This document shows, one piece after another, positions 42,242 to 57,598 of a stretch of DNA of 64,000 nt. The notes beneath the pieces were generated by a model. That model saw nothing but the letters and a program-made list of their open reading frames with translations. It searched no databases and was not told the origin of the DNA. The stretch comes from Pseudomonadota bacterium (GTDB taxonomy: Bacteria; Desulfobacterota; Syntrophorhabdia; Syntrophorhabdales; Syntrophorhabdaceae). Position numbers and translations under genes: made by a program. Positions within the stretch are counted from its first letter, which is position 1. Each line of letters opens with the position of its first letter. Location: the NCBI GenBank assembly GCA_026388275.1, contig JAPLKB010000063.1, positions 1-64,000 on the forward strand, given 5' to 3'.

Positions 42242-44464
<2,223 letters not shown>

Positions 44465-45850: not shown

Positions 45851-46945
45851 ATGTCTATCCAGACTCAAACAAGGGTTTTAACATGCATCCAATGCGGAAA
45901 ATGTACGGGGAGCTGCCCTGAGGCAGGAAGAACGCCCTTCAACATACGTATGCTTGTAAGAAAACAACAGTTTCATCACCAGATAGAGGAGTCGATCCCA
46001 TGGTATTGTACATCATGCGGTGCATGTACCATAAGGTGTCCCAGAGATGTAAAGCCATCAGAAATGATTATTGAAGTAAGGTCTGTCATGGTTGAAGAAG
46101 GGGACATACCGGCAACCATTCAAAAAGCCCTTGAGAATACTTTTGTTCAGAGAAACCCATGGGGCCGTTCCCGCGCTAAAAGGGGAGCATGGTTCGAAAA
46201 ACTTGATATCGAGATCCCTCATGTAAGCGAAACCGTATCAAAGAGGCTCCTTTTTACCTGTTGTATTCAGGCATACGATCCACGTTGCATGGTCATACCG
46301 GTAAATGTAGCAAAAATGTTCAAGAAAGGTGGCCTGGAGTTCGGCGTTCTTGGAGAAGAGGAAGCATGCTGCGGCAATGAGATACGGAGGATAGGCGAGT
46401 CGGGTCTTTTTGAGGAGCTTCAGGAAGAAAATATTGCCGCTTTTAAAGAATACGGAGTTAAGGAGATTATAACCCTTTCCCCCCATTGTATGAACACGCT
46501 GAAAAAGGAATACGGCAATCTGGGCATCAAGGTATCACATTACACAGAAATACTTGCAACCATGATAAAAGATGGATACCTCGTGCCCAAAATACCTTAT
46601 AACAAGAAAGTAATTTACCACGATCCCTGTTTTCTCGGAAAGCAAAACGGCATCTTTGATGAACCAAGAGATATACTCAAAAGCATAGAAGGTCTGGAAC
46701 TCCTTGAGTTTTCCAGATCAAGAGAAACATCCCTCTGTTGCGAAGGCGGCGGCGGAAGGATGTTTTACGAGGCTGAGACGAACTACCAGCGTAATAGCGA
46801 AATAAGAGTTCTGGAAGCAGTAGAAAAAGGAGCGGAAGTAATGGCAACAAGCTGCCCCTTTTGTGTAATGACGCTTGAAGATCCTGCAACCGAAAAGGGG
46901 TTGGCAGTAAAAGAGATATCCGAGATACTCATGGAGGTTTTATAA
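45851..46945 (+). CDS. HdrD-like iron-sulfur protein (two 4Fe-4S, two CCG domains)
   Basis: The 364-residue protein begins with two ferredoxin-type [4Fe-4S] motifs (CIQCGKCTGSCPEAG and CTSCGACTIRCPRD). Two CCG domains follow: CCIQAYDPRCM with ACCGNEI and SPHCMNTL, then DPCFLGKQNG with CCEGGGGRMF and SCPFCVMTLED. CCG domains hold the non-cubane [4Fe-4S] clusters of heterodisulfide reductase HdrB/HdrD. No membrane helix is present, unlike the membrane-bound ETF-linked oxidoreductases of syntrophs, so it is soluble. It is one base from etfB and probably exchanges electrons with the ETF. Confidence 0.88.
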   Translation: MSIQTQTRVLTCIQCGKCTGSCPEAGRTPFNIRMLVRKQQFHHQIEESIPWYCTSCGACTIRCPRDVKPSEMIIEVRSVMVEEGDIPATIQKALENTFVQRNPWGRSRAKRGAWFEKLDIEIPHVSETVSKRLLFTCCIQAYDPRCMVIPVNVAKMFKKGGLEFGVLGEEEACCGNEIRRIGESGLFEELQEENIAAFKEYGVKEIITLSPHCMNTLKKEYGNLGIKVSHYTEILATMIKDGYLVPKIPYNKKVIYHDPCFLGKQNGIFDEPRDILKSIEGLELLEFSRSRETSLCCEGGGGRMFYEAETNYQRNSEIRVLEAVEKGAEVMATSCPFCVMTLEDPATEKGLAVKEISEILMEVL

Positions 46946-46946
46946 G

Positions 46947-47726
46947 ATGAATCTATTAGTTTTTACAAAAAGAGTACCGGCGACACAGGAAGAAGAACTG
47001 CGTATTGTTGAAGAGGGTAGGGGGGTTGACCTTTCAAAGGTTCCCTTCAAAGTGAATGACTGGGATAATTACGCAGTGGAAGAGGCTGTGCGGATTGTTG
47101 AGAAGACAGGCGGATCTGTGACGGCAATCTCAATGGGCGATGCAGAATCCGACGAGGTCTTGCGAAGAGCCATTGCTATGGGTGCGAAGGACGGTTTTCT
47201 CATCGAGACTGATCAAATACTCCACGATCCAGGTGCAAGGGCGAACGTTATACAGAATTTCCTGAAAAAAGAAAACGTCTCTTTTGATGCAATCTTAACG
47301 GGTGTACAGTCCGAGGACGATCAGTTCGGCGCAACAGGCGGTATTCTCGCGTCAAAAATGGGGCTTCCCTTCGTATCTATGGTTATCGGCATCGATGCCT
47401 TTGAAAGTGACCATGTTATAGCAAGAAGGGAACTCGAAGGCGGTCTGCAGGAGAGAGTAAAGGTTATGCTTCCATGCGTCATATCGATTCAGACAGGAAT
47501 CAACGAGCCAAGGTACGTTTCCATCATGGGAGTACGGAAGGCATCCAAGGTAGAACGTAAGATCTTTAAAGGAAAAGAGTACGAAGATAACGTAAACTCC
47601 AGTATAGAGCTTGTAAAATGGGTTTACCCGGTCAGGAAGGGCGAGGCAACCATGCTTACAGGAGAACTGGATGGTATATGTAAAGAACTTCTCGGAATTC
47701 TGAAGGAAAAGGGGGTGTACCAATGA
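46947..47726 (+). CDS. etfB: Electron transfer flavoprotein beta subunit
   Basis: The 259-residue protein is EtfB: NLLVFTKRVPATQEEELRI at the start, NDWDNYAVEEAVRI, SMGDAESDEVLRRAIAMGAKDGFLI, DAILTGVQSEDDQFGATGGILASKMGLP and an AMP/FAD-contacting region near CVISIQTGINEPRYVSIMG. With EtfA it accepts electrons from acyl-CoA dehydrogenases such as the one at 34938. Four-base overlap with etfA. Confidence 0.96.
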   Translation: MNLLVFTKRVPATQEEELRIVEEGRGVDLSKVPFKVNDWDNYAVEEAVRIVEKTGGSVTAISMGDAESDEVLRRAIAMGAKDGFLIETDQILHDPGARANVIQNFLKKENVSFDAILTGVQSEDDQFGATGGILASKMGLPFVSMVIGIDAFESDHVIARRELEGGLQERVKVMLPCVISIQTGINEPRYVSIMGVRKASKVERKIFKGKEYEDNVNSSIELVKWVYPVRKGEATMLTGELDGICKELLGILKEKGVYQ

Positions 47727-48658
47727 GCTATACACTTGTTGTTGCTGAGGTAAGACGCGGGGTCTTTGAGGAAAGAAATCTGGATTCCATAGGTATTGCA
47801 GCCCTCCTGCAAAAAGATATCGTCCTTCTTGTTCCGGATGTTGCCTATGAAATGAAGGGAAATTTTGTTGACACAATAATGAAAGTTAACGTGGAAGAGG
47901 CTTTATTTTTCAATCCACTGAATTTTATAAACATTTTTGAGAAAGTAAAAGGTGCCCGCGGCAATCCGGATATGATTGTCTTCACACATTCGTCATCAGG
48001 CACTGAGCTTGCATCATATACAGCAGGTTATTTCAATATGCCTCTTATTACTGATGTCAGCGGTTTTGAAAAGGAAGGAAATATTTTCTATAAAAGCTAC
48101 TATTCCGACAAGATTTTCGGTGAGTTCCGGCAGGCAGGGGAAGGACCATGCATCATTACTGTGAGGAGCGGCAGTTTTAAAGAAAATGCTGTTGAAAAAG
48201 GTCCTGCTGAAACCGTTACGCTTGAGGGTATTTCCCTTTCAGATATGAGAACCTTCGTTGAGTATGTTGAAGAAGAAAAGGGAGAGATAGATATCACAAA
48301 AGCAGATTTCCTCCTTTCCGTGGGAAGAGGGATTGGAAATAAAGATGAGATAGCTGATTACCAGGAGCTTGCCGGGCTGTTAAAGGCAACTATGTCCGGC
48401 TCTCGGCCGGTCATTGATAAGATGTGGCTTCCCAAGGCACAACAGGTCGGTACATCAGGCAAAACAGTCAAGCCTAAAGTATACCTTGCCATGGGCATAA
48501 GCGGGGCTTTTCAGCATATAGCCGGCATGAAAGATTCTGATTGTATTATAGCGGTCAACAAAGACCCGGAGGCGCCTATCTTTCAATATGCCCATTACGG
48601 CATAATCGGTGATGCAAACAAGCTAAGAGATAAGCTGAAGGATATTGCCAAGGGTTAA
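47723..48658 (+). CDS. etfA: Electron transfer flavoprotein alpha subunit
   Basis: The 311-residue EtfA carries the FAD-binding C-terminal domain: LSVGRGIGNKDEI, GSRPVIDKMWLP, QVGTSGKTVKPKVYLAMGISGAFQHIAGM and IIAVNKDPEAPIFQYAHYGIIGD. It lacks the N-terminal ferredoxin extension found in some bifurcating EtfAs. The small spacing to etfB and to the HdrA gene (27 bases) places ETF within an Hdr electron-transfer operon. Confidence 0.96.
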   Translation: MSYTLVVAEVRRGVFEERNLDSIGIAALLQKDIVLLVPDVAYEMKGNFVDTIMKVNVEEALFFNPLNFINIFEKVKGARGNPDMIVFTHSSSGTELASYTAGYFNMPLITDVSGFEKEGNIFYKSYYSDKIFGEFRQAGEGPCIITVRSGSFKENAVEKGPAETVTLEGISLSDMRTFVEYVEEEKGEIDITKADFLLSVGRGIGNKDEIADYQELAGLLKATMSGSRPVIDKMWLPKAQQVGTSGKTVKPKVYLAMGISGAFQHIAGMKDSDCIIAVNKDPEAPIFQYAHYGIIGDANKLRDKLKDIAKG

Positions 48659-48685: not shown

Positions 48686-51397
48686 ATGGATGAGACATAT
48701 TCACAAGAAAAACACGTCCTTGTTGTAGGCGGTGGTATTGGCGGCATAACTGCTGCCCTTGAGCTTGCGGCCTGCGGCGTTCACGTAACCATGCTCGAGG
48801 AAGGCCCGTCCATAGGGGGACGGATGATTCAGCTCGATAAGACCTTCCCTACGCTTGATTGTTCCACATGCACCCTTTCACCCAAAATGGTTGAGGTAGC
48901 ACTCAATCGTAATATAGAGCTGCTCTCATGGGCAAAACCCATGGCAGTAAAAAAAGCGGGGCAGGGCTTTCAGGTATCGATCCTGAAAAAATCGCGATAT
49001 GTCGATATCCAGAAATGCACTGCCTGTGGATCCTGTTCACCGGCATGTCCTGTGGTAATGAAGAGTGAGTTCAACATGGGGACAGGACCGAGAAAAGCAA
49101 TCTATATTCCTTTTCCTCAGGCCATTCCCAACAAGGCAAGTATTGACAAGCGTGTAGACCGTCCGTGTAAAGCCGCTTGTGTTGATGCATGTCCAATTCA
49201 TACAAACGTTCTTGGATACCTCAAGCATATTAGTGAGGGAAGGTTTGCCGATGCCTACATGCTCATCAGGGCAACAAACCCATTCCCGTCGGTGTGCGGA
49301 AGGGTATGCTATGCACCCTGCGAAAAAGTTTGCAACAGAGGACAATTGGATGATCCATTGGCAATTCGTGACCTGAAAAGATTTGCGGTTGATCAATTTG
49401 ATGTGGATTCTCTTGAAGTGCCCCAAATAACAAAGACAGAAAAAAAGGTGGCTGTTATCGGAGCAGGGCCGGCCGGCCTTGCCTGTGCACACAACCTTGC
49501 CATAGAAGGCCATGAAGTAACAGTTTTTGAGGCCCTTCCAGAGCCGGGAGGCATGTTGCGGTATGCCATACCTGAATACCGGCTTCCCAAAGAAGAGCTG
49601 AGAAAAGAGATCGGTTATATTGAAAAACTTGGTGTTGACATTAAATGCGGCATAGAAATAGGCAAGGATATGACTATTAATGCTGTAAAGAATGATTTTG
49701 ATGCTATCTTCATCGGCGCAGGAGCCCCGAAGGGTTTGCTTCTTGGGGTGGAAGGGGAAGATACTGACGGTGTTATCGATGGTATACAATTTCTCCGTGC
49801 TGTCAATAGCGGTAAGTCCCTGGCAATAGGGAAGAATGTCACCGTCGTAGGCGGAGGAAACACTGCCGTCGACTGTGCGAGAACAGCAAAACGGCTCGGA
49901 AGCGAGAATGTAAAGCTCGTTTACCGGAGAACCCGTGATGAGATGCCAGCAGCCGGTGAAGAGATAGAGGCACTCATCCACGAGGGGATAGAAATACAGT
50001 TCCTTACAACACCGGTTCGCTTTTATGCAGAAAATGGAAGGCTCTCCGGGATGGAGTGCATCCGCATGGAACTCGGTGAGCCCGATGCAAGCGGCCGCAG
50101 GCGTCCGGTCCCCGTTGCAAACTCAAAATTTACACTCCCTGTCGATACGGTCATTACAGCCCTTGGTCAGGCAACCCAGACCTCTTTTGTCGAAGGGATA
50201 GGGGTGGTGTTGGCGAAAAACGGCACGATTGAAGTAGACCCTGCAACAGGCCAGACGAATATTGATGGCGTATTTGCCGGTGGTGATGTTTATACAGGAC
50301 CTGCCTATGTGGTTGATGCCATTGCAGCCGGTCAGAAGGCGGCTTTTTCCATAAACAACTATTTGAAGGGTGCAGCAATAACTGAGGTCAGGGAAGAAAA
50401 GAAACCTGAGCAGCTTACAGAGGTTGAAGTGGCCCAACTGGCTGAGAAAACTCCACGGGCAGAGCGTATTCGTATGCCTGAAGCAAATGTTGAAGAGAGA
50501 GTGACCAATTTCGGCGAAGTGGCCATCGGCTACAGTCCGGAAGAAGCAATGGCTGAGGCAACACGATGCCTTGCCGGTCGTATAGAAGGCTGCATTCAGT
50601 GCGGTGAGTGCGAGAGACAGTGTGAAGTAAGAGCTATTGATCATGCCATGCAGGATGAGATTGTGGAAAGAGAGTACGACAGCATAGTCCTTGCCCCTGG
50701 CTTTGATCTATATGACCCGACGGAAAAAAAGGAATACGGCTATGGCACCCTTGAAGGGGTTTTGACAGGCATCGAGTTCGAGCGGATCTGTTCAGTCACA
50801 GGACCGACCGGCGGCGATATTGTGTTGAACGGAAAAGTTCCGAAGCGATTTTATTTTATACAATGTGTGGGCTCCAGGGATCGGCAAAGCGGTGCCAGGT
50901 TCTGTTCACGGGTATGCTGCATGTATACGGCAAAACATGCCAGTATCGTCAAGGACAGGATTAAAGATGCTGAGATTTATGTTTCCTACATTGATGTCAG
51001 GGCTTATGGAAAGAGTTATGAAGAATTTTACAAGAGCACTCAGGAAAGCGGAACCTTTTACATACGGGGCATTCCCGGAGAAATTACGAAGACTGAAAAT
51101 GGCTTATTGGTAAGAGTGGAGGACATGCTAAGCAATGAAATGCTTGAGGTTGAAGTTGATCTGGTAATCCTCGCAACAGGGGTACGACCGCGTAAACAGA
51201 CTGAAGACCTTTGCAGAATCATGTCCATAAAAAGAGATGAGTATGGTTTTATCAGGGTGGACTCAATACAGCCGTCACGGACAAATGTTAATGGCATCTT
51301 TGTATGCGGCATGGCCTCGGGGCCTAAGGATGTACCCGATACTGTCGCATCCGGCGGAGAAGCGGCTGCGCGATGCATGGAGTACATAAATAAGTGA
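48686..51397 (+). CDS. hdrA: HdrA with an inserted GltD-type NAD(P)H:acceptor module
   Basis: The 903-residue protein is an HdrA split by an inserted flavoprotein. Residues 1-150 start an HdrA (FAD motif GGGIGG, LDCSTCTLSPKM, then a 4Fe-4S motif CTACGSCSPAC at 111-121). Residues about 155-640 are a GltD-type (glutamate synthase small chain) unit: Cys-rich CKAACVDACPIHTN and PCEKVCNRGQ, FAD motif GAGPAG at 260-265 and NAD(P) motif GGGNTA at 389-394. Residues 650-903 complete HdrA, with CVGSRD, the key ARFCSRVCC at 738-745 and an FAD-contacting end. It can plausibly pass electrons between NAD(P)H and the Hdr iron-sulfur chain. Confidence 0.85.
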   Translation: MDETYSQEKHVLVVGGGIGGITAALELAACGVHVTMLEEGPSIGGRMIQLDKTFPTLDCSTCTLSPKMVEVALNRNIELLSWAKPMAVKKAGQGFQVSILKKSRYVDIQKCTACGSCSPACPVVMKSEFNMGTGPRKAIYIPFPQAIPNKASIDKRVDRPCKAACVDACPIHTNVLGYLKHISEGRFADAYMLIRATNPFPSVCGRVCYAPCEKVCNRGQLDDPLAIRDLKRFAVDQFDVDSLEVPQITKTEKKVAVIGAGPAGLACAHNLAIEGHEVTVFEALPEPGGMLRYAIPEYRLPKEELRKEIGYIEKLGVDIKCGIEIGKDMTINAVKNDFDAIFIGAGAPKGLLLGVEGEDTDGVIDGIQFLRAVNSGKSLAIGKNVTVVGGGNTAVDCARTAKRLGSENVKLVYRRTRDEMPAAGEEIEALIHEGIEIQFLTTPVRFYAENGRLSGMECIRMELGEPDASGRRRPVPVANSKFTLPVDTVITALGQATQTSFVEGIGVVLAKNGTIEVDPATGQTNIDGVFAGGDVYTGPAYVVDAIAAGQKAAFSINNYLKGAAITEVREEKKPEQLTEVEVAQLAEKTPRAERIRMPEANVEERVTNFGEVAIGYSPEEAMAEATRCLAGRIEGCIQCGECERQCEVRAIDHAMQDEIVEREYDSIVLAPGFDLYDPTEKKEYGYGTLEGVLTGIEFERICSVTGPTGGDIVLNGKVPKRFYFIQCVGSRDRQSGARFCSRVCCMYTAKHASIVKDRIKDAEIYVSYIDVRAYGKSYEEFYKSTQESGTFYIRGIPGEITKTENGLLVRVEDMLSNEMLEVEVDLVILATGVRPRKQTEDLCRIMSIKRDEYGFIRVDSIQPSRTNVNGIFVCGMASGPKDVPDTVASGGEAAARCMEYINK

Positions 51398-51480
51398 AAA
51401 GTGAACGGTGCATAGTGAATAGTAGAAGATTTCTGAAATCTTGTTTGTGTCCCACGTCACACGTCTCACGTCCCACGGGG
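51394..51480. repeat. Short tandem repeats between the two hdrA genes
   Basis: GTGAAAAGTGAACGG and GCATAGTGAATAGTAG (51394-51426) are degenerate copies of a GTGAATA unit, followed by CACGTCACACGTCTCACGTCC (51453-51473), a run of CACGTC-type units. Between them AAGATTTCTGAAATCTT is a perfect small palindrome. The stretch fills the gap before the next start. Confidence 0.6.
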
Positions 51481-51488
51481 GTTTGGAT

Positions 51489-53162
51489 ATGAAGACCGGT
51501 ATATTCATCTGCCATTGCGGTCACAATATCAAACACACCATTGATGTGAAAAAGCTGAGCCAGTACTTCAAAAAATATCCCGGTGTAACCGTTGCAGAAG
51601 ACTATCCCTTTGTCTGTTCTGAGCCTGGTCAGGACATGATCAGGGACAGTATTGAAAAACAAGGACTTGATCGCGTGCTTATCGCATCTTGCACACCTTC
51701 ACTCCACGGAGAATTGTTCAAGGACCTCCTGAAAAAGTCAGACCTAAACCCCTTTCTTTTAAGAAGAGTCAGCATCAGAGAGCATTGTTCCTGGGTTGGC
51801 GATGACCTTGACATCAATACAGAAAAGGCAAGAAGACTGATCCTGGCAGGACTTTATTCGGCAGCTCATTACGTTCCCCTCGAAGAAAAGGTAGTGGAGG
51901 TCACCAAGTCGGCACTTATCGTAGGAGGCGGAGTCTCAGGCTTAAGCGCAGCAGCATTTCTTTCAAAAATGGGAATGCAGGTATATCTTGTAGAAAAAGA
52001 AGCTGAACTTGGCGGTCATGTTCGAGCCCTTAAGGACATCTGGCCTGCCAGAAGGGACGGCAAGGAAATTATCGATGAAATGGTGGAGGAACTAACCGGT
52101 AAAAGCAATGTTGAAATATTCACCTCAACAACGATCAGCGCCTTTGAAGGTTTTTTCGGCAACTACGAAGTAACGCTCAATACCCCGAAGGGAGAGAAAA
52201 AATTAACTGCAGGCGGAGTGATTGTGGCTGCAGGATTTTCACCTTTTGATCCCCGCATAAAGCCGGAGCTGGCCTACGGTAAAGATAAAAGGATTATTAC
52301 TACGCTCGATTTTGAAAGAGACAGTGACTCCCTCTCTCTTCCCGAGAATCCACGTATAGCTATACTCCACTGTGTAGGTTCAAGAGATGAACAGATAGGT
52401 AAACCATACTGTTCGAGGGTGTGCTGTATCAATGCGCTTCGTGTCGGTGATTCGATAAAAGAGAAATATAAGGATTCATACGTTGAATCATTTTATATGG
52501 ATGTAAGGGCGCATCCGCGAGGCGGAGAAGAATTCTTTGAAGATACTCAGGAAAAGGGTGTCCTGTTCACGAGAAGCAATATCGCTGAGATTGTTCCGGG
52601 TTCTAAGGGTGTACTTGTCCGGGGAGAAGATACATTATTTAATGAGTTCTTTGAGAGGGAGTTTGATCTTGTTGTCCTTTCAATAGGCATGTCTCCCCCT
52701 GTTGACAATAAGCTGATTGCCACGCTTTTCAAGATAACCCTTGATAAAGATAAATTCTTCCTTGAAGCACATATTAAACTGAGACCCTTTGACACGGCGG
52801 TAAAGGGAATTTTCATAGCAGGATCATGTTCAGGTCCAAAGGATATTGAGGAATCAATCAACCACGGAAGGGCCTCTGCGGTGAAGCTCTACGGATTCCT
52901 TAACCTCGGATATGCCTTTGTAGACCCCTTTATATCAATCGTTGATCCAAAGAGGTGCAGCGGCTGCAGGATGTGTGAACAGGCCTGTGTTGCAAAAGCA
53001 ATAAAGTATGATGAAACAAAGAGGATTGTCCATGTTGAGGAAGCCGCCTGCATGGGATGCGGCCTCTGTAACAGTACGTGCCCCTCATCGGCAGTAACCT
53101 TAAAAGGTTATGCGGACATGATTATTGATGATGAAATAAGCGCCCTCACGGAGGCAATATAA
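51489..53162 (+). CDS. hdrA: HdrA-type flavin iron-sulfur protein (second HdrA)
   Basis: The start at 51489 gives 557 residues; the frame is open from 51441 but MKTGIFICHCGHNI is the canonical HdrA N-terminus. It has an FAD motif GGGVSG at 146-151, CVGSRDEQIGKPYCSRVCC, the VYVDVRAHP-like YMDVRAHPRGGEEF and two C-terminal [4Fe-4S] motifs (CSGCRMCEQAC and CMGCGLCNSTC). HdrA bifurcates electrons at its FAD in methanogens. A Cys pair in CTPSLHG near residue 68 is also conserved in the family. Together with MvhD, HdrC and HdrB below it forms the core of a soluble Hdr complex. Confidence 0.92.
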   Translation: MKTGIFICHCGHNIKHTIDVKKLSQYFKKYPGVTVAEDYPFVCSEPGQDMIRDSIEKQGLDRVLIASCTPSLHGELFKDLLKKSDLNPFLLRRVSIREHCSWVGDDLDINTEKARRLILAGLYSAAHYVPLEEKVVEVTKSALIVGGGVSGLSAAAFLSKMGMQVYLVEKEAELGGHVRALKDIWPARRDGKEIIDEMVEELTGKSNVEIFTSTTISAFEGFFGNYEVTLNTPKGEKKLTAGGVIVAAGFSPFDPRIKPELAYGKDKRIITTLDFERDSDSLSLPENPRIAILHCVGSRDEQIGKPYCSRVCCINALRVGDSIKEKYKDSYVESFYMDVRAHPRGGEEFFEDTQEKGVLFTRSNIAEIVPGSKGVLVRGEDTLFNEFFEREFDLVVLSIGMSPPVDNKLIATLFKITLDKDKFFLEAHIKLRPFDTAVKGIFIAGSCSGPKDIEESINHGRASAVKLYGFLNLGYAFVDPFISIVDPKRCSGCRMCEQACVAKAIKYDETKRIVHVEEAACMGCGLCNSTCPSSAVTLKGYADMIIDDEISALTEAI

Positions 53163-53287: not shown

Positions 53288-53698
53288 ATGGTTGAAGTAA
53301 CAAACACCAAGAATACCGAGATCATCGGTTTCGCCTGCTCTTTTTGTACATTCAAGGCATCTGAGATGGCAGGAAGCCTGAGGATGAAATATCCGGACGG
53401 AGTGAAGCTCATTCAGGTGCCCTGTTCAAGCAGGGTGGACCCGGCATTTGTAATTAAGGCAATATTTGAGGGGGCAGATGGTGTCTTTGTGGCCGGATGT
53501 CATCCCGGTGATTGTCATTTTATTAAAGGGAATTATTTTACCAGGAGAAAGATGGCTGCCCTGAAAGAGATGTTCGACGTATTTTCCATTAAGGATAAAT
53601 TACGCCTTTTCTGGGTAAGCGCTGCTGAGGCAAGACGTTTTGTTGAAAAAGTTACAGGCATGCATAACGAGATAAAGGAAAAAAAAAATGCAGAGTAA
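53288..53698 (+). CDS. mvhD: MvhD/FlpD-type iron-sulfur subunit
   Basis: The 136-residue protein has the MvhD pattern IIGFACSFCTF (Cys17, Cys20), a VPCSSRVDP stretch with Cys46 and GVFVAGCHPGDCHFIKGN (Cys71, Cys76). MvhD is the [2Fe-2S] link between the electron donor and HdrA in heterodisulfide reductase complexes. An AGGAGG site precedes the start. Its end overlaps the next gene by 11 bases. Confidence 0.93.
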   Translation: MVEVTNTKNTEIIGFACSFCTFKASEMAGSLRMKYPDGVKLIQVPCSSRVDPAFVIKAIFEGADGVFVAGCHPGDCHFIKGNYFTRRKMAALKEMFDVFSIKDKLRLFWVSAAEARRFVEKVTGMHNEIKEKKNAE

Positions 53699-54698
53699 GC
53701 AGATTGAAAATGGCAATATCGAAAATGCTCTTAATCAGTTTTTGAAAGATGAGCAGCATCTGGTCCTTGGATTTGAAAAGGGCAAAGAAGGTTTAAATCA
53801 TGGGATATTTAAAACACATGTGGATAATCTTACGCTTTTGAATCCAGTGTTCAGTATAAACGGGGCCTTATATCTACGCCGTCTATTCTCCAAAGGAACA
53901 GGGATTATTCTCATGCTAAGACCTTGTGAAATAAGGGCATACAACGAATTAGTCAAATTGAACCAGATCGAAAGAGAAGATATCATTGCTGTGTCCATCG
54001 ATTGCCCGGGAACTGTGTCATCGAAACAGGGATTTGATGATATACCCGCAGAGGCATCAAAGATAGTAGAATATTTGCAGAACCCCGGCAAGATGCGATG
54101 GGCCTGCGAGGTATGCAGGGAAAAGAGGGGGGTTGTGGGAGATGCAGGCATCAGAATAGACAAAAACGGTATCTTCTGGGCATTTTCTTACACGGAAAAA
54201 GGAGAGACCCTTTTATCACTTATCGAAGGTGAGATCAAAGAAGCAACGGCAGAAATGCTCATCAGCGAAAGCAAGGAGCCCGTTAAATTTACCACCGATA
54301 TGGAAGAATTCTCCAAAGACTTCTCAAAGTGTATCATGTGCAAGAATTGCAGGGATATGTGTCCGGTTTGTTACTGCATTGATTGTGTGTTCAACGGTGA
54401 TGAGTACTTGCCCAAGGGCGATGCACTTATTAACAAAATATTTCGTATTGGCTCTTCAGCTATGCCCCAGGGTAAAGAGCTTTTTCATATGATCAGGATG
54501 TTCCATGTTTCACAGACCTGTGTGGGCTGTGGCGCATGCGAAGACGCATGTCCCCAGGGGATCCCCTTAACAAAGTACTTCAAGGGCACATCAGAAAGAC
54601 TCCAGGGCATGTTTTCATATATATCAGGACGGAGTCTTGATGAAGAAATACCCTACCTTACATTTCTTGAAGACGAGTTGGAAGATGCAGAAGACTGA
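53688..54698 (+). CDS. FrhB/FdhB-like flavin iron-sulfur protein
   Basis: The 336-residue protein resembles the beta subunits of coenzyme F420-reducing hydrogenase and of formate dehydrogenase: YLRRLFSKGTGIILMLRPCEIRAYNELVKLN and ISIDCPGT-like VSIDCPGTV. It has a mid-protein CACEVCREKRG-type Cys pair, and C-terminal iron-sulfur motifs KCIMCKNCRDMCPVCYC and CVGCGACEDACPQG. The N-terminal half may bind a flavin. In methanogens FdhB feeds electrons from formate into Hdr; here the partner is unknown because no formate dehydrogenase alpha gene is near. Overlaps hdrC by 14 bases. Confidence 0.82.
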   Translation: MQSKQIENGNIENALNQFLKDEQHLVLGFEKGKEGLNHGIFKTHVDNLTLLNPVFSINGALYLRRLFSKGTGIILMLRPCEIRAYNELVKLNQIEREDIIAVSIDCPGTVSSKQGFDDIPAEASKIVEYLQNPGKMRWACEVCREKRGVVGDAGIRIDKNGIFWAFSYTEKGETLLSLIEGEIKEATAEMLISESKEPVKFTTDMEEFSKDFSKCIMCKNCRDMCPVCYCIDCVFNGDEYLPKGDALINKIFRIGSSAMPQGKELFHMIRMFHVSQTCVGCGACEDACPQGIPLTKYFKGTSERLQGMFSYISGRSLDEEIPYLTFLEDELEDAED

Positions 54699-55185
54699 TC
54701 ACGTAATAGATTTAGCCGGATATAAAAAAGAAGACCTAACAGTCTGTCTGGGATGCAAAATCTGTGCATCTGTTTGCACGGTCAATGACCTTTCAATCAG
54801 CACGAGTCCTCAGGAACTACTCCAGACACTCTTTCTTGGAAAGGATATTTCTGCAGATAATCCGCTGGTGCGATACTGCACGGGTTGTTACCGGTGTACC
54901 CAGGCCTGTCCCTGGGATATACGAATCCCGGAAATAGTGAGGGCTCTCAGGGATGTGCTTGCCACGGGATCGCCTTTTGAAAAGGCATTCAAAGGTTCTT
55001 TAGATATATGGGGAAGGGTTTATGAGCCATATGTGCTTCTTAAGGCAGTACCTTTTCTTATTAAAGAAGGATACTTAAAACATATGAACAGATGGATTGA
55101 ATATATGGGCATTCATTTACCCCATAAAGTTAAAAAGATAAATCCTTCAAACAATTCAAACGGCCAAAAAGGCGGAACATTATGA
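54685..55185 (+). CDS. hdrC: Heterodisulfide reductase subunit HdrC-like
   Basis: The start at 54685 (MQKTDHVIDLAGYKK) gives 166 residues; the frame is open further upstream but inside the preceding gene. Two [4Fe-4S] motifs, CLGCKICASVCTV and CTGCYRCTQACPWD, pass electrons from HdrA to HdrB. The C-terminus is lysine-rich. The stop overlaps the hdrB start by four bases. Confidence 0.92.
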   Translation: MQKTDHVIDLAGYKKEDLTVCLGCKICASVCTVNDLSISTSPQELLQTLFLGKDISADNPLVRYCTGCYRCTQACPWDIRIPEIVRALRDVLATGSPFEKAFKGSLDIWGRVYEPYVLLKAVPFLIKEGYLKHMNRWIEYMGIHLPHKVKKINPSNNSNGQKGGTL

Positions 55186-55862
55186 ATTACGGTTATTACC
55201 CGGGTTGCTCGCTCACAGGATCAGCCCACAAGTTGGATAAAGGGGTAAGGAAGGTTTTAGAAAAACAGGGTCATGTCCTTAAGGAAATCCCTGATTGGAA
55301 CTGTTGTGGTGCATTTGAATATGGCGACAGGAATGAACTTACCAACTTTTCCAAAAGAAACCTGGAAAAGGCCAGGGGTCTCTTTTCTGAGATCATTGCT
55401 CCATGCCCGGCATGCTATAAAAATCTGAAAGAGGCAGACGAGAATAATGAATTTGAAATTCAGCACCCCCTCGATCTTTTTGGAGAAGCTTTTCTTTCTT
55501 CAATGAAACAGGTGCACGATCTGAAAGGTAACGTATTTACACCATATTACGGTTGTATCCTTTTAAGGCCACGGGAAACTGCAATCACAAATAAAACAGT
55601 GATGGAAGACACAATTTCCCGCTTTGGTGGAGAAATTGCTAGCGAAAAAGTAAAGGATAAATGCTGCGGAGGGAATCAGATTTTTATTAATAAGTTTGCC
55701 ACTGAGAAGCTTTCCAGGCTTATACTTGAAAAATCAAAAGGAACGTTGGTTGTGTTCTGCCCTCTCTGTCATATGGCTTTGAAAACATTTTCAGGGGACA
55801 GGAAGGTAATTTATTTCACTGACCTTTTGCTTTATATAATGGGAGAAAAGAACACGCTATGA
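55182..55862 (+). CDS. hdrB: Heterodisulfide reductase subunit HdrB-like (two CCG domains)
   Basis: The 226-residue protein is shorter than many HdrB subunits but has both CCG domains: DWNCCGAFEYG with APCPACYKN, and KCCGGNQI with FCPLCHMALKT. These bind non-cubane [4Fe-4S] clusters where a disulfide would be reduced. YYPGCSL at the start and YYGCILLRPRE in the middle are typical. Four-base overlaps join it to hdrC and to the third hdrA. The natural disulfide is unknown in a bacterium without coenzyme M and B genes in view. Confidence 0.92.
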   Translation: MNYGYYPGCSLTGSAHKLDKGVRKVLEKQGHVLKEIPDWNCCGAFEYGDRNELTNFSKRNLEKARGLFSEIIAPCPACYKNLKEADENNEFEIQHPLDLFGEAFLSSMKQVHDLKGNVFTPYYGCILLRPRETAITNKTVMEDTISRFGGEIASEKVKDKCCGGNQIFINKFATEKLSRLILEKSKGTLVVFCPLCHMALKTFSGDRKVIYFTDLLLYIMGEKNTL

Positions 55863-57598
55863 ACGTATTGATAGTAGGCGGTGGTATAAGCGGCATTTCT
55901 GCAGCAAAGGTTGCCCTGAAGGAACATCATAATGTTACAATCCTCGAGAAAACTGCTGAGCCGGGCGGACTCATGGCGCGTATAGCCAACTGCAGGGTAG
56001 GGTTCAAGACTTTCTTTGATGAGATCGTTAATGACAGCAATCTTCAAGTAATAACAGATACTAATATTATAAACGTTAATAAAATAGATGATAAATATAT
56101 TGTAACAACTGATAATAATAAGGTAATAAATGCTGATAGAGTTATAGTTGCCACTGGCCTGTCACCATATGATCCTGTTGAGTATAAAGGAAAGAGAATA
56201 CTTACAAGCCTTGAGTACGATGCTCTTATAGATCAGCGGAAAGGAGAACTTCCCAACGATTTTAATAAGATAGGATTTGTACTCTGTGTGGGTTCACGCT
56301 CAAAAGAGTATCCTCTTTGTTCATCGGTATGCTGTTCCTATACCATACGAGAGATTAAATGGACACTACAGAGGGCAAAACCGGAGATAAAGGTTTTTTA
56401 CAATGACCTTCGTTTTTTTGGCCAGGAATTTTATATGGAAAAGGCATACAGGGATGCTGGTGTTACATTCATACGTGCCAATTCACGCTATTTTGAAGAA
56501 GACGAAAAGGGCGTAACAATCCGCTATTTTACGGACGAAGAAATCAGAGAGGAACGCTTTGATTATATAGTTTTGGCAATAGGGCTGAGGCCTAACCCTG
56601 AACTTGCAGCTTTAAGTAAACTATTCGGTTTTTCCCTCAATGAGTATGGATTTGTGAAAGAGATTGAACCATTAACCACAGATATTGAAGGGGTTTATGT
56701 GTCTGGCGGTGCACTTGAACCTATGAATATAAAGGATTCTATTCTTACTGGATTCGGAGCAGGCATGCTTGCTCTCAGGGGTAAAAATTTATCTTCAGAA
56801 ATAATTAGGAATCAGGAAATGCTTTATAAAGAAACAGAACCTGATTTACCTAAAGTTGACGGTGATTTTTCATCGTATCTATTTTATCTTGGCACTGAAA
56901 ATATTGGCACGGGTATATTCTACGAGTTTATATCCTCAAAATTTATTGCCATGGCGAGAGATTTAAAAAGGGCCGGAAAAACAGTATATGTATTCACACA
57001 AAATATGGTTATGCCTTCATATGATGAAATTGTATATGAGGATGCACGACGTGAGGGTGTTTTATTTATACACCTTGAAGAAGGAGAAAAGTTTACATTT
57101 AATCATGGCAAAGCCATTATTATGGGTCTAAAAAGACAACTCGATTTTGCTGTTGAAAGGATTATATGTTTCGACGATTATACAGATCTGTTTAAGGACA
57201 GAGAATTCCTTTCTCTTTACAGATCCGAACCTCAGCTCAGATGGTCGCCAACAAAATGGAGCAGAAAAAGATACCATGTCGGATTCATCAGGCATCCGCG
57301 TGCAGAACGTTGGGAACCGAGAGAGATTCTCGGAGCTTTAGGTGAGATGCTTCTTGATATGCAGGAGGAGAGATTATTTCCTGTTATAAATGAAGAGCGA
57401 TGCAGTGGCTGCGGTTCATGCGAGGGGGCATGTCCCCATAGTGCCATTGAGATTGAAATGCGTGAAACGTCACTGGCTATTTTCGGGCCACTGGCATCAA
57501 CAGTCGTACCAATTGCACATGTAAAGGAAGATGCCTGCGTGGGTTGTGGTCTGTGCGCATCAACATGTCCCTCTGATGTGATCAGTTATAATCCCTAA
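55859..57598 (+). CDS. hdrA: HdrA-type flavin iron-sulfur protein (third HdrA)
   Basis: The 579-residue protein starts with an FAD motif (MNVLIVGGGISGISAAKVAL) and has no long N-terminal extension. CVGSRSKEYPLCSSVCCSYT carries HdrA-type cysteines, and two C-terminal [4Fe-4S] motifs (CSGCGSCEGAC and CVGCGLCASTC) end it. Residues about 345-475 appear to repeat the plan of 170-300: each has an LG/CVG start, a VFYNDLRFFGQEF- or VYVFTQNMVMPSYDE-type strand and a GVTFIR / GVLFIH pair, but the second copy lacks the cysteines. It is the last gene of the cluster, overlapping hdrB by four bases. Confidence 0.88.
   Translation: MNVLIVGGGISGISAAKVALKEHHNVTILEKTAEPGGLMARIANCRVGFKTFFDEIVNDSNLQVITDTNIINVNKIDDKYIVTTDNNKVINADRVIVATGLSPYDPVEYKGKRILTSLEYDALIDQRKGELPNDFNKIGFVLCVGSRSKEYPLCSSVCCSYTIREIKWTLQRAKPEIKVFYNDLRFFGQEFYMEKAYRDAGVTFIRANSRYFEEDEKGVTIRYFTDEEIREERFDYIVLAIGLRPNPELAALSKLFGFSLNEYGFVKEIEPLTTDIEGVYVSGGALEPMNIKDSILTGFGAGMLALRGKNLSSEIIRNQEMLYKETEPDLPKVDGDFSSYLFYLGTENIGTGIFYEFISSKFIAMARDLKRAGKTVYVFTQNMVMPSYDEIVYEDARREGVLFIHLEEGEKFTFNHGKAIIMGLKRQLDFAVERIICFDDYTDLFKDREFLSLYRSEPQLRWSPTKWSRKRYHVGFIRHPRAERWEPREILGALGEMLLDMQEERLFPVINEERCSGCGSCEGACPHSAIEIEMRETSLAIFGPLASTVVPIAHVKEDACVGCGLCASTCPSDVISYNP

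Follow-up and report, generated by a model that had tools for sequence, protein, structure and literature searches.

The locus considered here raises the question of how an HdrA protein came to carry a second flavoprotein in its interior, and what that flavoprotein does there. It lies in a 64,000-nucleotide stretch of DNA (hereafter the window) from a genome of the Syntrophorhabdaceae (positions 1 to 64,000 of contig JAPLKB010000063.1), in which a first-pass annotation described an HdrA interrupted by a domain resembling GltD, the glutamate synthase small chain. Our analysis indicates that the protein is probably a split form of HdrL, in which a GltD domain of the StnC type serves as a port for nicotinamide adenine dinucleotide phosphate, NADP(H), and the flavin adenine dinucleotide (FAD) of HdrA itself is the electron-bifurcating or confurcating site; it would be paired with HdrA2, the product of the next gene, and coupled to an electron-transferring flavoprotein (Etf) and HdrD. 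The gene and its parts are as follows.

48686–51397, forward strand: HdrA-GltD gene, 903 amino acids from an ATG start; a short (split) HdrL, or type III HdrA
48686–49150, forward strand: HdrA part 1 (residues 1–155), with the FAD Rossmann half, C62 and the first half of the inserted ferredoxin domain
49151–50584, forward strand: GltD/StnC-type insert (residues 156–633, 478 amino acids), with Fer4_20, FAD and NADP(H) subdomains and a tail
50585–51394, forward strand: HdrA part 2 (residues 634–903), with the second half of the ferredoxin domain and the remainder of the thioredoxin-reductase-like domain

The interruption of HdrA is confirmed by alignment to solved structures. Residues 10–155 align without a gap to residues 145–290 of the HdrA chain 5odc_A (expect value, E, 5.3e-48) and residues 634–897 to residues 291–561 (E 6.7e-71); the insert is located exactly between HdrA residues 290 and 291 (5odc numbering), within the inserted ferredoxin domain. 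The first Cys motif of this domain (C111, C114, C117, C121) precedes the insert, and the second (C636, C639, C642, C646) directly follows it. Both halves match the same HdrA chains, each continuing the other, which places them in one HdrA family, a point on which the first-pass annotation had made its interpretation depend. The insert best matches proteins of the GltD/Nfn/Stn type, namely 9bov_A (E 2.3e-132), StnC 8oh5_C (3e-112) and NfnB 4ylf_B (1.7e-106), and also aligns to the glutamate synthase small chain, with the Pfam domains Fer4_20 at 161–238 and Pyr_redox_2 at 253–549. Its limits, originally set at about residues 155–640, are refined to 156–633, the insertion itself being upheld. The segment before it was mistaken for the N-terminal iron-sulfur part of HdrA: compared with 5odc, the protein lacks both that domain and the C-terminal ferredoxin, and the segment holds the first FAD-binding half and the first ferredoxin Cys motif.

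The predicted model of HdrA-GltD, with a mean predicted local distance difference test (pLDDT) of 80.6 and a predicted template modelling score (pTM) of 0.66, superposes over residues 7–903 on residues 150–574 of HdrA 8rvu_a (398 of 427 residues aligned, Z 39.4). The best structural relatives of its middle part are NfnABC 9bov_A (Z 48.4) and StnC 8oh5_C (Z 47.1). Because HdrA continues gap-free on both sides and the model aligns to 8rvu_a, the GltD domain is, by alignment and predicted structure, truly inserted in HdrA and not fused to its end. Chance or an artefact of assembly or annotation is ruled out, since 30 further full-length homologs (loci L008–L037) carry all three segments and within the phylum at least 115 of the 395 genomes searched have junction-spanning matches. 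The latter were collected with a 95-residue junction query, and all counts from this search are lower bounds (matches listed to E ~1.5e-21). Among the matches listed, open reading frames (ORFs) of at least 1,390 amino acids occur in 85 genomes, of 880–960 in 16, of 740–790 in 10, and other or cut frames in 18, where one genome may count in several classes. Within the window's own family the short form is found in 11 of 14 genomes, with at least 81% identity at the junction.

Conserved residues were counted in 51 aligned HdrA-GltD homologs, five of which have a cut N-terminus (L031, L034, L095, L104, L105). Two sites in the insert are central to its interpretation.

49850–49930, forward strand: NAD(P) site, G389xG391xxA394 and Y413-R414-R415; without exception in the 31 rows of a first alignment, intact in 46 of 51
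49376–49378, forward strand: K231, aligned with StnC K170, the Lys that ligates the [4Fe-4S] cluster adjoining FAD (Glu in NfnB)

The NAD(P) motif, whose integrity the first-pass annotation also regarded as decisive, is intact, and the site is NADP-like; from the motif, the protein would use NADP rather than NAD. It is kept in all 23 rows of the window's group, and the five exceptions are L103, L107 and L108, in which the subdomain is deleted, and L106 and L112, in which CLE replaces YRR. In these last two, both HdrL-type proteins (L106:5111-9547 and L112:5144-9619), the replacement suggests a changed use of cofactor. The residue at K231 is Lys in 50 of the 51 homologs and His in L106, and among 53 GltD proteins outside HdrA it is Glu in 25 (mostly 465–507 amino acids long, an NfnB-like size) and Lys in 28. 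According to the accessible part of PMC10482914, a Lys ligates the cluster next to FAD in StnC, whose flavin is non-bifurcating and binds NADPH, and the bifurcating NfnB has a Glu. Both StnC-type features, the Lys at the proximal cluster and the NADPH motif, are present in the insert, and the Glu ligand of the proximal [4Fe-4S] cluster in NfnB is absent from the window protein. As K231 is a Lys as in StnC, in contrast to the Glu of bifurcating NfnB, we read the insert as a port for NADP(H) that would not itself bifurcate.

The residues that mark the flavin of electron-bifurcating HdrA are present in the flanks. E699 and K750, which correspond to E356 and K409 near FAD, are kept in 51 of 51 homologs; the roles of the two residues at the HdrA flavin are described in the available portion of PMC12054007. 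All eight Cys of the inserted ferredoxin domain and the cluster Cys of part 2 (727/740/744/745) are equally kept in 51 of 51. C62 occupies the position of HdrA Cys197, and each of the 46 rows whose N-terminus is complete has Cys there. Four of the five cut rows (L031, L095, L104, L105) show an in-frame TGA at the equivalent codon, a little upstream of the ORF as listed, the pattern expected if selenocysteine served as the cluster ligand.

The domains that HdrA-GltD lacks are found in the product of the gene that follows it.

51489–53162, forward strand: HdrA2, with the N-terminal Fe-S domain and a C-terminal ferredoxin, without the inserted ferredoxin and without Cys197 (ORF listed from TTG at 51441)

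The match of HdrA2 leaps from HdrA residue 234 to 321, the inserted ferredoxin domain being missing, and Cys is missing from both the Cys194 and the Cys197 position, as it is in all 20 rows counted. The two proteins therefore have complementary domain sets, HdrA2 holding the N-terminal Fe-S domain and C-terminal ferredoxin and HdrA-GltD holding the Cys197 equivalent. In L029, L036 and 12 of the 20 loci fetched from other genomes (L095, L097–L101, L104–L106, L109, L110 and L112, with the C-terminal unit of L109 only partly matched) they are fused in the same order in a single chain of about 1,400–1,590 amino acids, the HdrL type. Since both units form one chain elsewhere, the window holds HdrL in two genes; as the second HdrA unit, which in the long form belongs to the same polypeptide, is here the next gene, we class the protein as a split variant and not as HdrL proper. 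A heterodimer was proposed for tandem HdrA proteins with a complementary pattern in anaerobic methanotrophic archaea (ANME) (PMC9012536, in the portion available), and a similar pairing of HdrA-GltD with HdrA2 would be expected here.

HdrA-GltD and HdrA2 belong to a cluster of ten genes in the order HdrD-EtfB-EtfA-HdrA/GltD-HdrA2-MvhD-FdhB-like-HdrC-HdrB-HdrA3. The other eight are listed below.

45851–46945, forward strand: HdrD-like soluble Fe-S protein (2x4Fe-4S and two CCG domains), the proposed Etf partner
46947–47726, forward strand: EtfB (PF01012; nearest solved structure 1o94 ETF)
47723–48658, forward strand: EtfA, FAD domain present (PF00766, PF01012)
53288–53698, forward strand: MvhD (PF02662)
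53688–54698, forward strand: FdhB/ElpB-like iron-sulfur subunit (predicted model, best PDB matches 7bkb_E and 8rvu_E)
54637–55185, forward strand: HdrC, probably starting downstream of the TTG given for the ORF
55182–55862, forward strand: HdrB with both CCG motifs
55859–57598, forward strand: HdrA3, a divergent HdrA ending in a dicluster ferredoxin, with Arg in place of K409 and Asp in place of E356

Against solved ETFs, EtfB matches 1o94 (E 1.2e-32), then the bifurcating 5ol2 (1.5e-21) and 7qh2 (6.1e-21). The model of the FdhB-like subunit (pLDDT 80.1) matches 7bkb_E (E 2.1e-14) and 8rvu_E (1.0e-13), chains that we take to be FdhB and ElpB of the archaeal formate dehydrogenase-Hdr and Elp-Hdr complexes, respectively. 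The presence of mvhD near HdrA-GltD is a trait shared with HdrL / type III HdrA. The gene order is conserved. In L008–L027, EtfA is directly upstream in 20 of 20 loci, EtfB is present in 19 and HdrD in 18; downstream, 19 loci have HdrA2 and MvhD and 18 have the last four genes, all absences being at contig ends. All ten genes are present in L102, from a different family within the same taxonomic order, and in L113, from the same genus, and EtfA is thus directly upstream in all 22 loci of the window's group (L008–L027, L102, L113). In mycobacterial EtfD, one part accepts the electrons of Etf (PMC13083937, in the text accessible); the soluble HdrD is similar to that part, and for this reason we propose that Etf docks on HdrD. 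No description of an Etf-HdrA-GltD cluster was found in the accessible portions of the open-licence literature, including PMC5736913, PMC5861303, PMC13101534, PMC10553843 and PMC5946492.

The source genome also encodes a 760-amino-acid protein containing GltD (L001) with Glu at the NfnB position and one [FeFe] hydrogenase, and no RnfC above the family cut-off was found in it. A long ORF a few kb upstream of the cluster (window 42281–44464), in an otherwise anaerobic setting, is presumably a bifunctional catalase-peroxidase, and a further HdrA-type match in a 1,035-amino-acid frame lies about 25 kb past the cluster, beyond the window on the same contig (G000:C63:83005-84327).

From these components a route for electrons can be proposed. 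In ordinary HdrA the inserted ferredoxin domain hands low-potential electrons to soluble ferredoxin, and in the window protein GltD sits between the two Cys motifs of this domain. NADP(H) would exchange a hydride with the FAD of GltD, and single electrons would then move through the two [4Fe-4S] clusters of GltD, and next through the pair in the interrupted ferredoxin domain, to reach the FAD of HdrA, the presumed bifurcating or confurcating site. In the putative HdrA-GltD:HdrA2 heterodimer, HdrA2 would give the N-terminal Fe-S domain and C-terminal ferredoxin, and HdrA-GltD the Cys197 ligand. The complex would couple NADP(H) to HdrBC, to an MvhD/FdhB module and to an Etf/HdrD module that carries electrons from acyl-coenzyme A (acyl-CoA) dehydrogenases. 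The first-pass proposal that the insert wires an NAD(P) site directly into HdrA is supported and was largely right, the passage of electrons to HdrA being what we infer from this arrangement. On textbook potentials (about -370 mV for NADPH in cells, about -10 to -100 mV for acyl-CoA/Etf and -420 to -500 mV for ferredoxin), bifurcation driven by NADPH, with Etf and ferredoxin as acceptors, would be favourable. If NADPH served as co-donor, lifting electrons from Etf to H2 or formate would be close to the limit and would require the products to stay at very low levels. In the most extended form of this proposal, which we consider possible and still doubtful, a soluble and membrane-free complex built on split HdrL links the NADP(H) pool to Etf, with NADP(H) entering through GltD in the former ferredoxin gate, Etf electrons from acyl-CoA dehydrogenases entering through HdrD and the HdrA flavin coupling the two, and GltD being an exchangeable cassette that moved among HdrA backbones at a single site and whose NADP half was lost in one lineage.

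Other roles for the insert have to be weighed against that of an NADP(H) port. It may be an NfnB-like second bifurcation site, giving two bifurcating flavins per protein as suggested for the ANME-1 proteins HdrA9-11, and it is indeed 41–44% identical to solved NfnB-type chains over ~390–407 residues and retains R299 (NfnB R201) in 51 of 51 homologs. However, the proximal-cluster ligand is Lys and not Glu in 50 of 51, none of the ten cluster genes encodes an NfnA-type partner subunit, and StnC retains the equivalent Arg yet is non-bifurcating in the account accessible in PMC10482914; a second bifurcation site is accordingly quite unlikely. The use of NAD(H) was claimed for archaeal type III HdrA on the basis of a GXGXXG motif (PMC12054007, in the portion available). 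In the alignment, however, the GxGxxG stretch at 259–264 falls on the FAD site, and it may be that the authors read an FAD stretch as the NAD motif. The NAD(P) Rossmann site at 389–394 is GxGxxA, with YRR, in the window protein and in the archaeal rows L030, L032, L033 and L037. The CLE found in place of YRR in two of 51 rows (L106, L112), which we take to be an NAD-like pattern, speaks for NAD(H) in those proteins, and for the insert in general we hold this cofactor to be very unlikely.

The GltD flavin could alternatively be chiefly a docking or entry site for Etf. This idea draws on three proteins of the 740–790-amino-acid form (L103:8589-10859, L107:7266-9515, L108:8536-10785), which have the insert at the same site and have cleanly lost the NADP subdomain (window residues ~348–453 and 465–505) but keep the Fe-S and FAD parts. 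They are preceded by EtfB, EtfA and an acyl-CoA dehydrogenase (Pfam-confirmed in L103) and followed by a plain HdrA, and ORFs of this size occur in 10 of the at least 115 junction-bearing genomes, among the matches listed. The association is also the best independent hint that such an HdrA may deal with Etf. Against a docking role, all 23 rows of the window's group retain the NADP motif, and the group's Etf genes adjoin HdrD, the protein type that takes Etf electrons in EtfD (PMC13083937, in the text accessible), and we judge the role unlikely. Several observations nevertheless count against the split HdrL with an NADP(H) port that we prefer. The same three proteins suggest that coupling to Etf needs no NADP site, since they keep EtfBA nearby without the subdomain, and in L028–L037, outside the window's group, an Etf match was found in 0 of 10 loci within the flanks examined. 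Three of 20 HdrA2 proteins keep Lys at the K409 position; for this reason the flavin of HdrA2 may also bifurcate, and an Arg there is no proof of loss. Finally, the model has pLDDT below 50 at residues 118–158 and 631–635, and the rebuilt ferredoxin domain is consequently placed without confidence.

The history of the insert differs from that of its host. In a tree of the HdrA parts (omitting L031, L034, L095, L104 and L105, whose N-terminal part is cut), insert-bearing rows are scattered with at least 3–4 changes, and the approximately unbiased (AU) test rejects a clade uniting all 46 (p 0.010); in the GltD tree, by contrast, the 51 inserts form nearly one group (2 changes). A second GltD tree was made without L103, L107 and L108. 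A single vertical origin of all insert-bearing HdrA proteins is thus not supported. Because the HdrA-part tree scatters these rows while the GltD tree unites their inserts, the simplest reading is that a GltD cassette passed between HdrA backbones at one site. The GltD domains of L028, L029, L094 and L095 group with those of the window's group (100/100 support), whereas the HdrA parts of L028, L029 and L094 group with HdrL, although the HdrA data do not firmly reject joining these three to the window's group (p 0.086). The GltD data reject a single clade of the 17 HdrL-type rows (p 1.9e-9) and are compatible with a clade uniting all 23 rows of the window's group (p 0.296). In L017:4461-7196 and L018:1220-3976, identity to the window protein is 25–74% in segments of residues 201–633 and 77–98% in the flank segments, with one at 68%; their flanks thus resemble the window protein almost as closely as those of other relatives do, whereas most of the insert is far more distant. 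This could reflect replacement of the insert or, since the clade test of the 23 rows is non-significant, a local acceleration of rate. Two proteins of 950–1,018 amino acids (L038:8274-11327, L041:711-3560) have a C-terminal GltD, which the tree places among those inserted into HdrA.

The re-oxidation of electrons derived from acyl-CoA by syntrophic bacteria is a long-standing question. The cluster, with its Etf, HdrD, NADP(H)-reading HdrA, MvhD, FdhB-like subunit and HdrBC, offers a concrete soluble candidate for this step. If the proposal is true, a membrane-free complex would give syntrophic degraders of aromatic compounds and fatty acids one more means of energy coupling. The residue data from the whole family bear on two published readings, the second bifurcation site and the preference for NAD, and the natural variants (split, fused and without the NADP half) are a ready series for testing the functions of the parts. 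The main interest lies in the conserved Etf-linked cluster and in this natural deletion series.

The combination of HdrA with GltD is not itself novel, being preceded by HdrL (2009), HdrA9-11 (2022) and type III HdrA (2025); the design is already in print, and the conserved ten-gene setting with Etf is the part for which no printed description was found. Canonical HdrA (5odc_A, 8rvu_a) shares the flanks, flavin residues and cluster Cys with the window protein, which differs in lacking the N-terminal Fe-S domain and C-terminal ferredoxin and in having the insert. The closest solved relatives of the insert are the GltD domains of StnC and NfnABC (8oh5_C, 9bov_A, 9n5u_A; Z 45–48), with Lys at the cluster ligand position. 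In StnC, GltD is joined to NuoG/FdhF-like domains and a HydBC-type bifurcating module and not to HdrA, and no fused NuoG/FdhF-like domain is present among the domains of the 903-residue protein. Type III HdrA was described from nine archaeal sequences as a type I HdrA with GltD near the ferredoxin domain and a claimed NAD specificity (PMC12054007, in the portion available); it has the insertion and the proposed NAD(P)H port in common with the window protein, and the bacterial forms lie outside its nine sequences. HdrA9/10/11 of ANME-1 have an NfnB-like insertion of ~500 amino acids in the inserted ferredoxin domain, for which a link to NADPH and a tandem heterodimer were proposed (PMC9012536, in the portion available). 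The insertion, the proposed NADPH link and the proposed heterodimer have their counterparts in the window protein, but the ANME-1 loci L030, L033 and L037 keep the N- and C-terminal domains in one chain of 1,162–1,177 amino acids, with no Etf found nearby. HdrL was named in the sulfate reducer Desulfobacterium autotrophicum HRM2 as a fusion of heterodisulfide reductase and glutamate synthase (PMC2702500, in the text accessible). Homologs of HdrL size are one chain of ~1,400–1,590 amino acids (the HRM2 protein itself being compared by description), and the window has the same parts distributed over two genes, together with EtfBA and a soluble HdrD.

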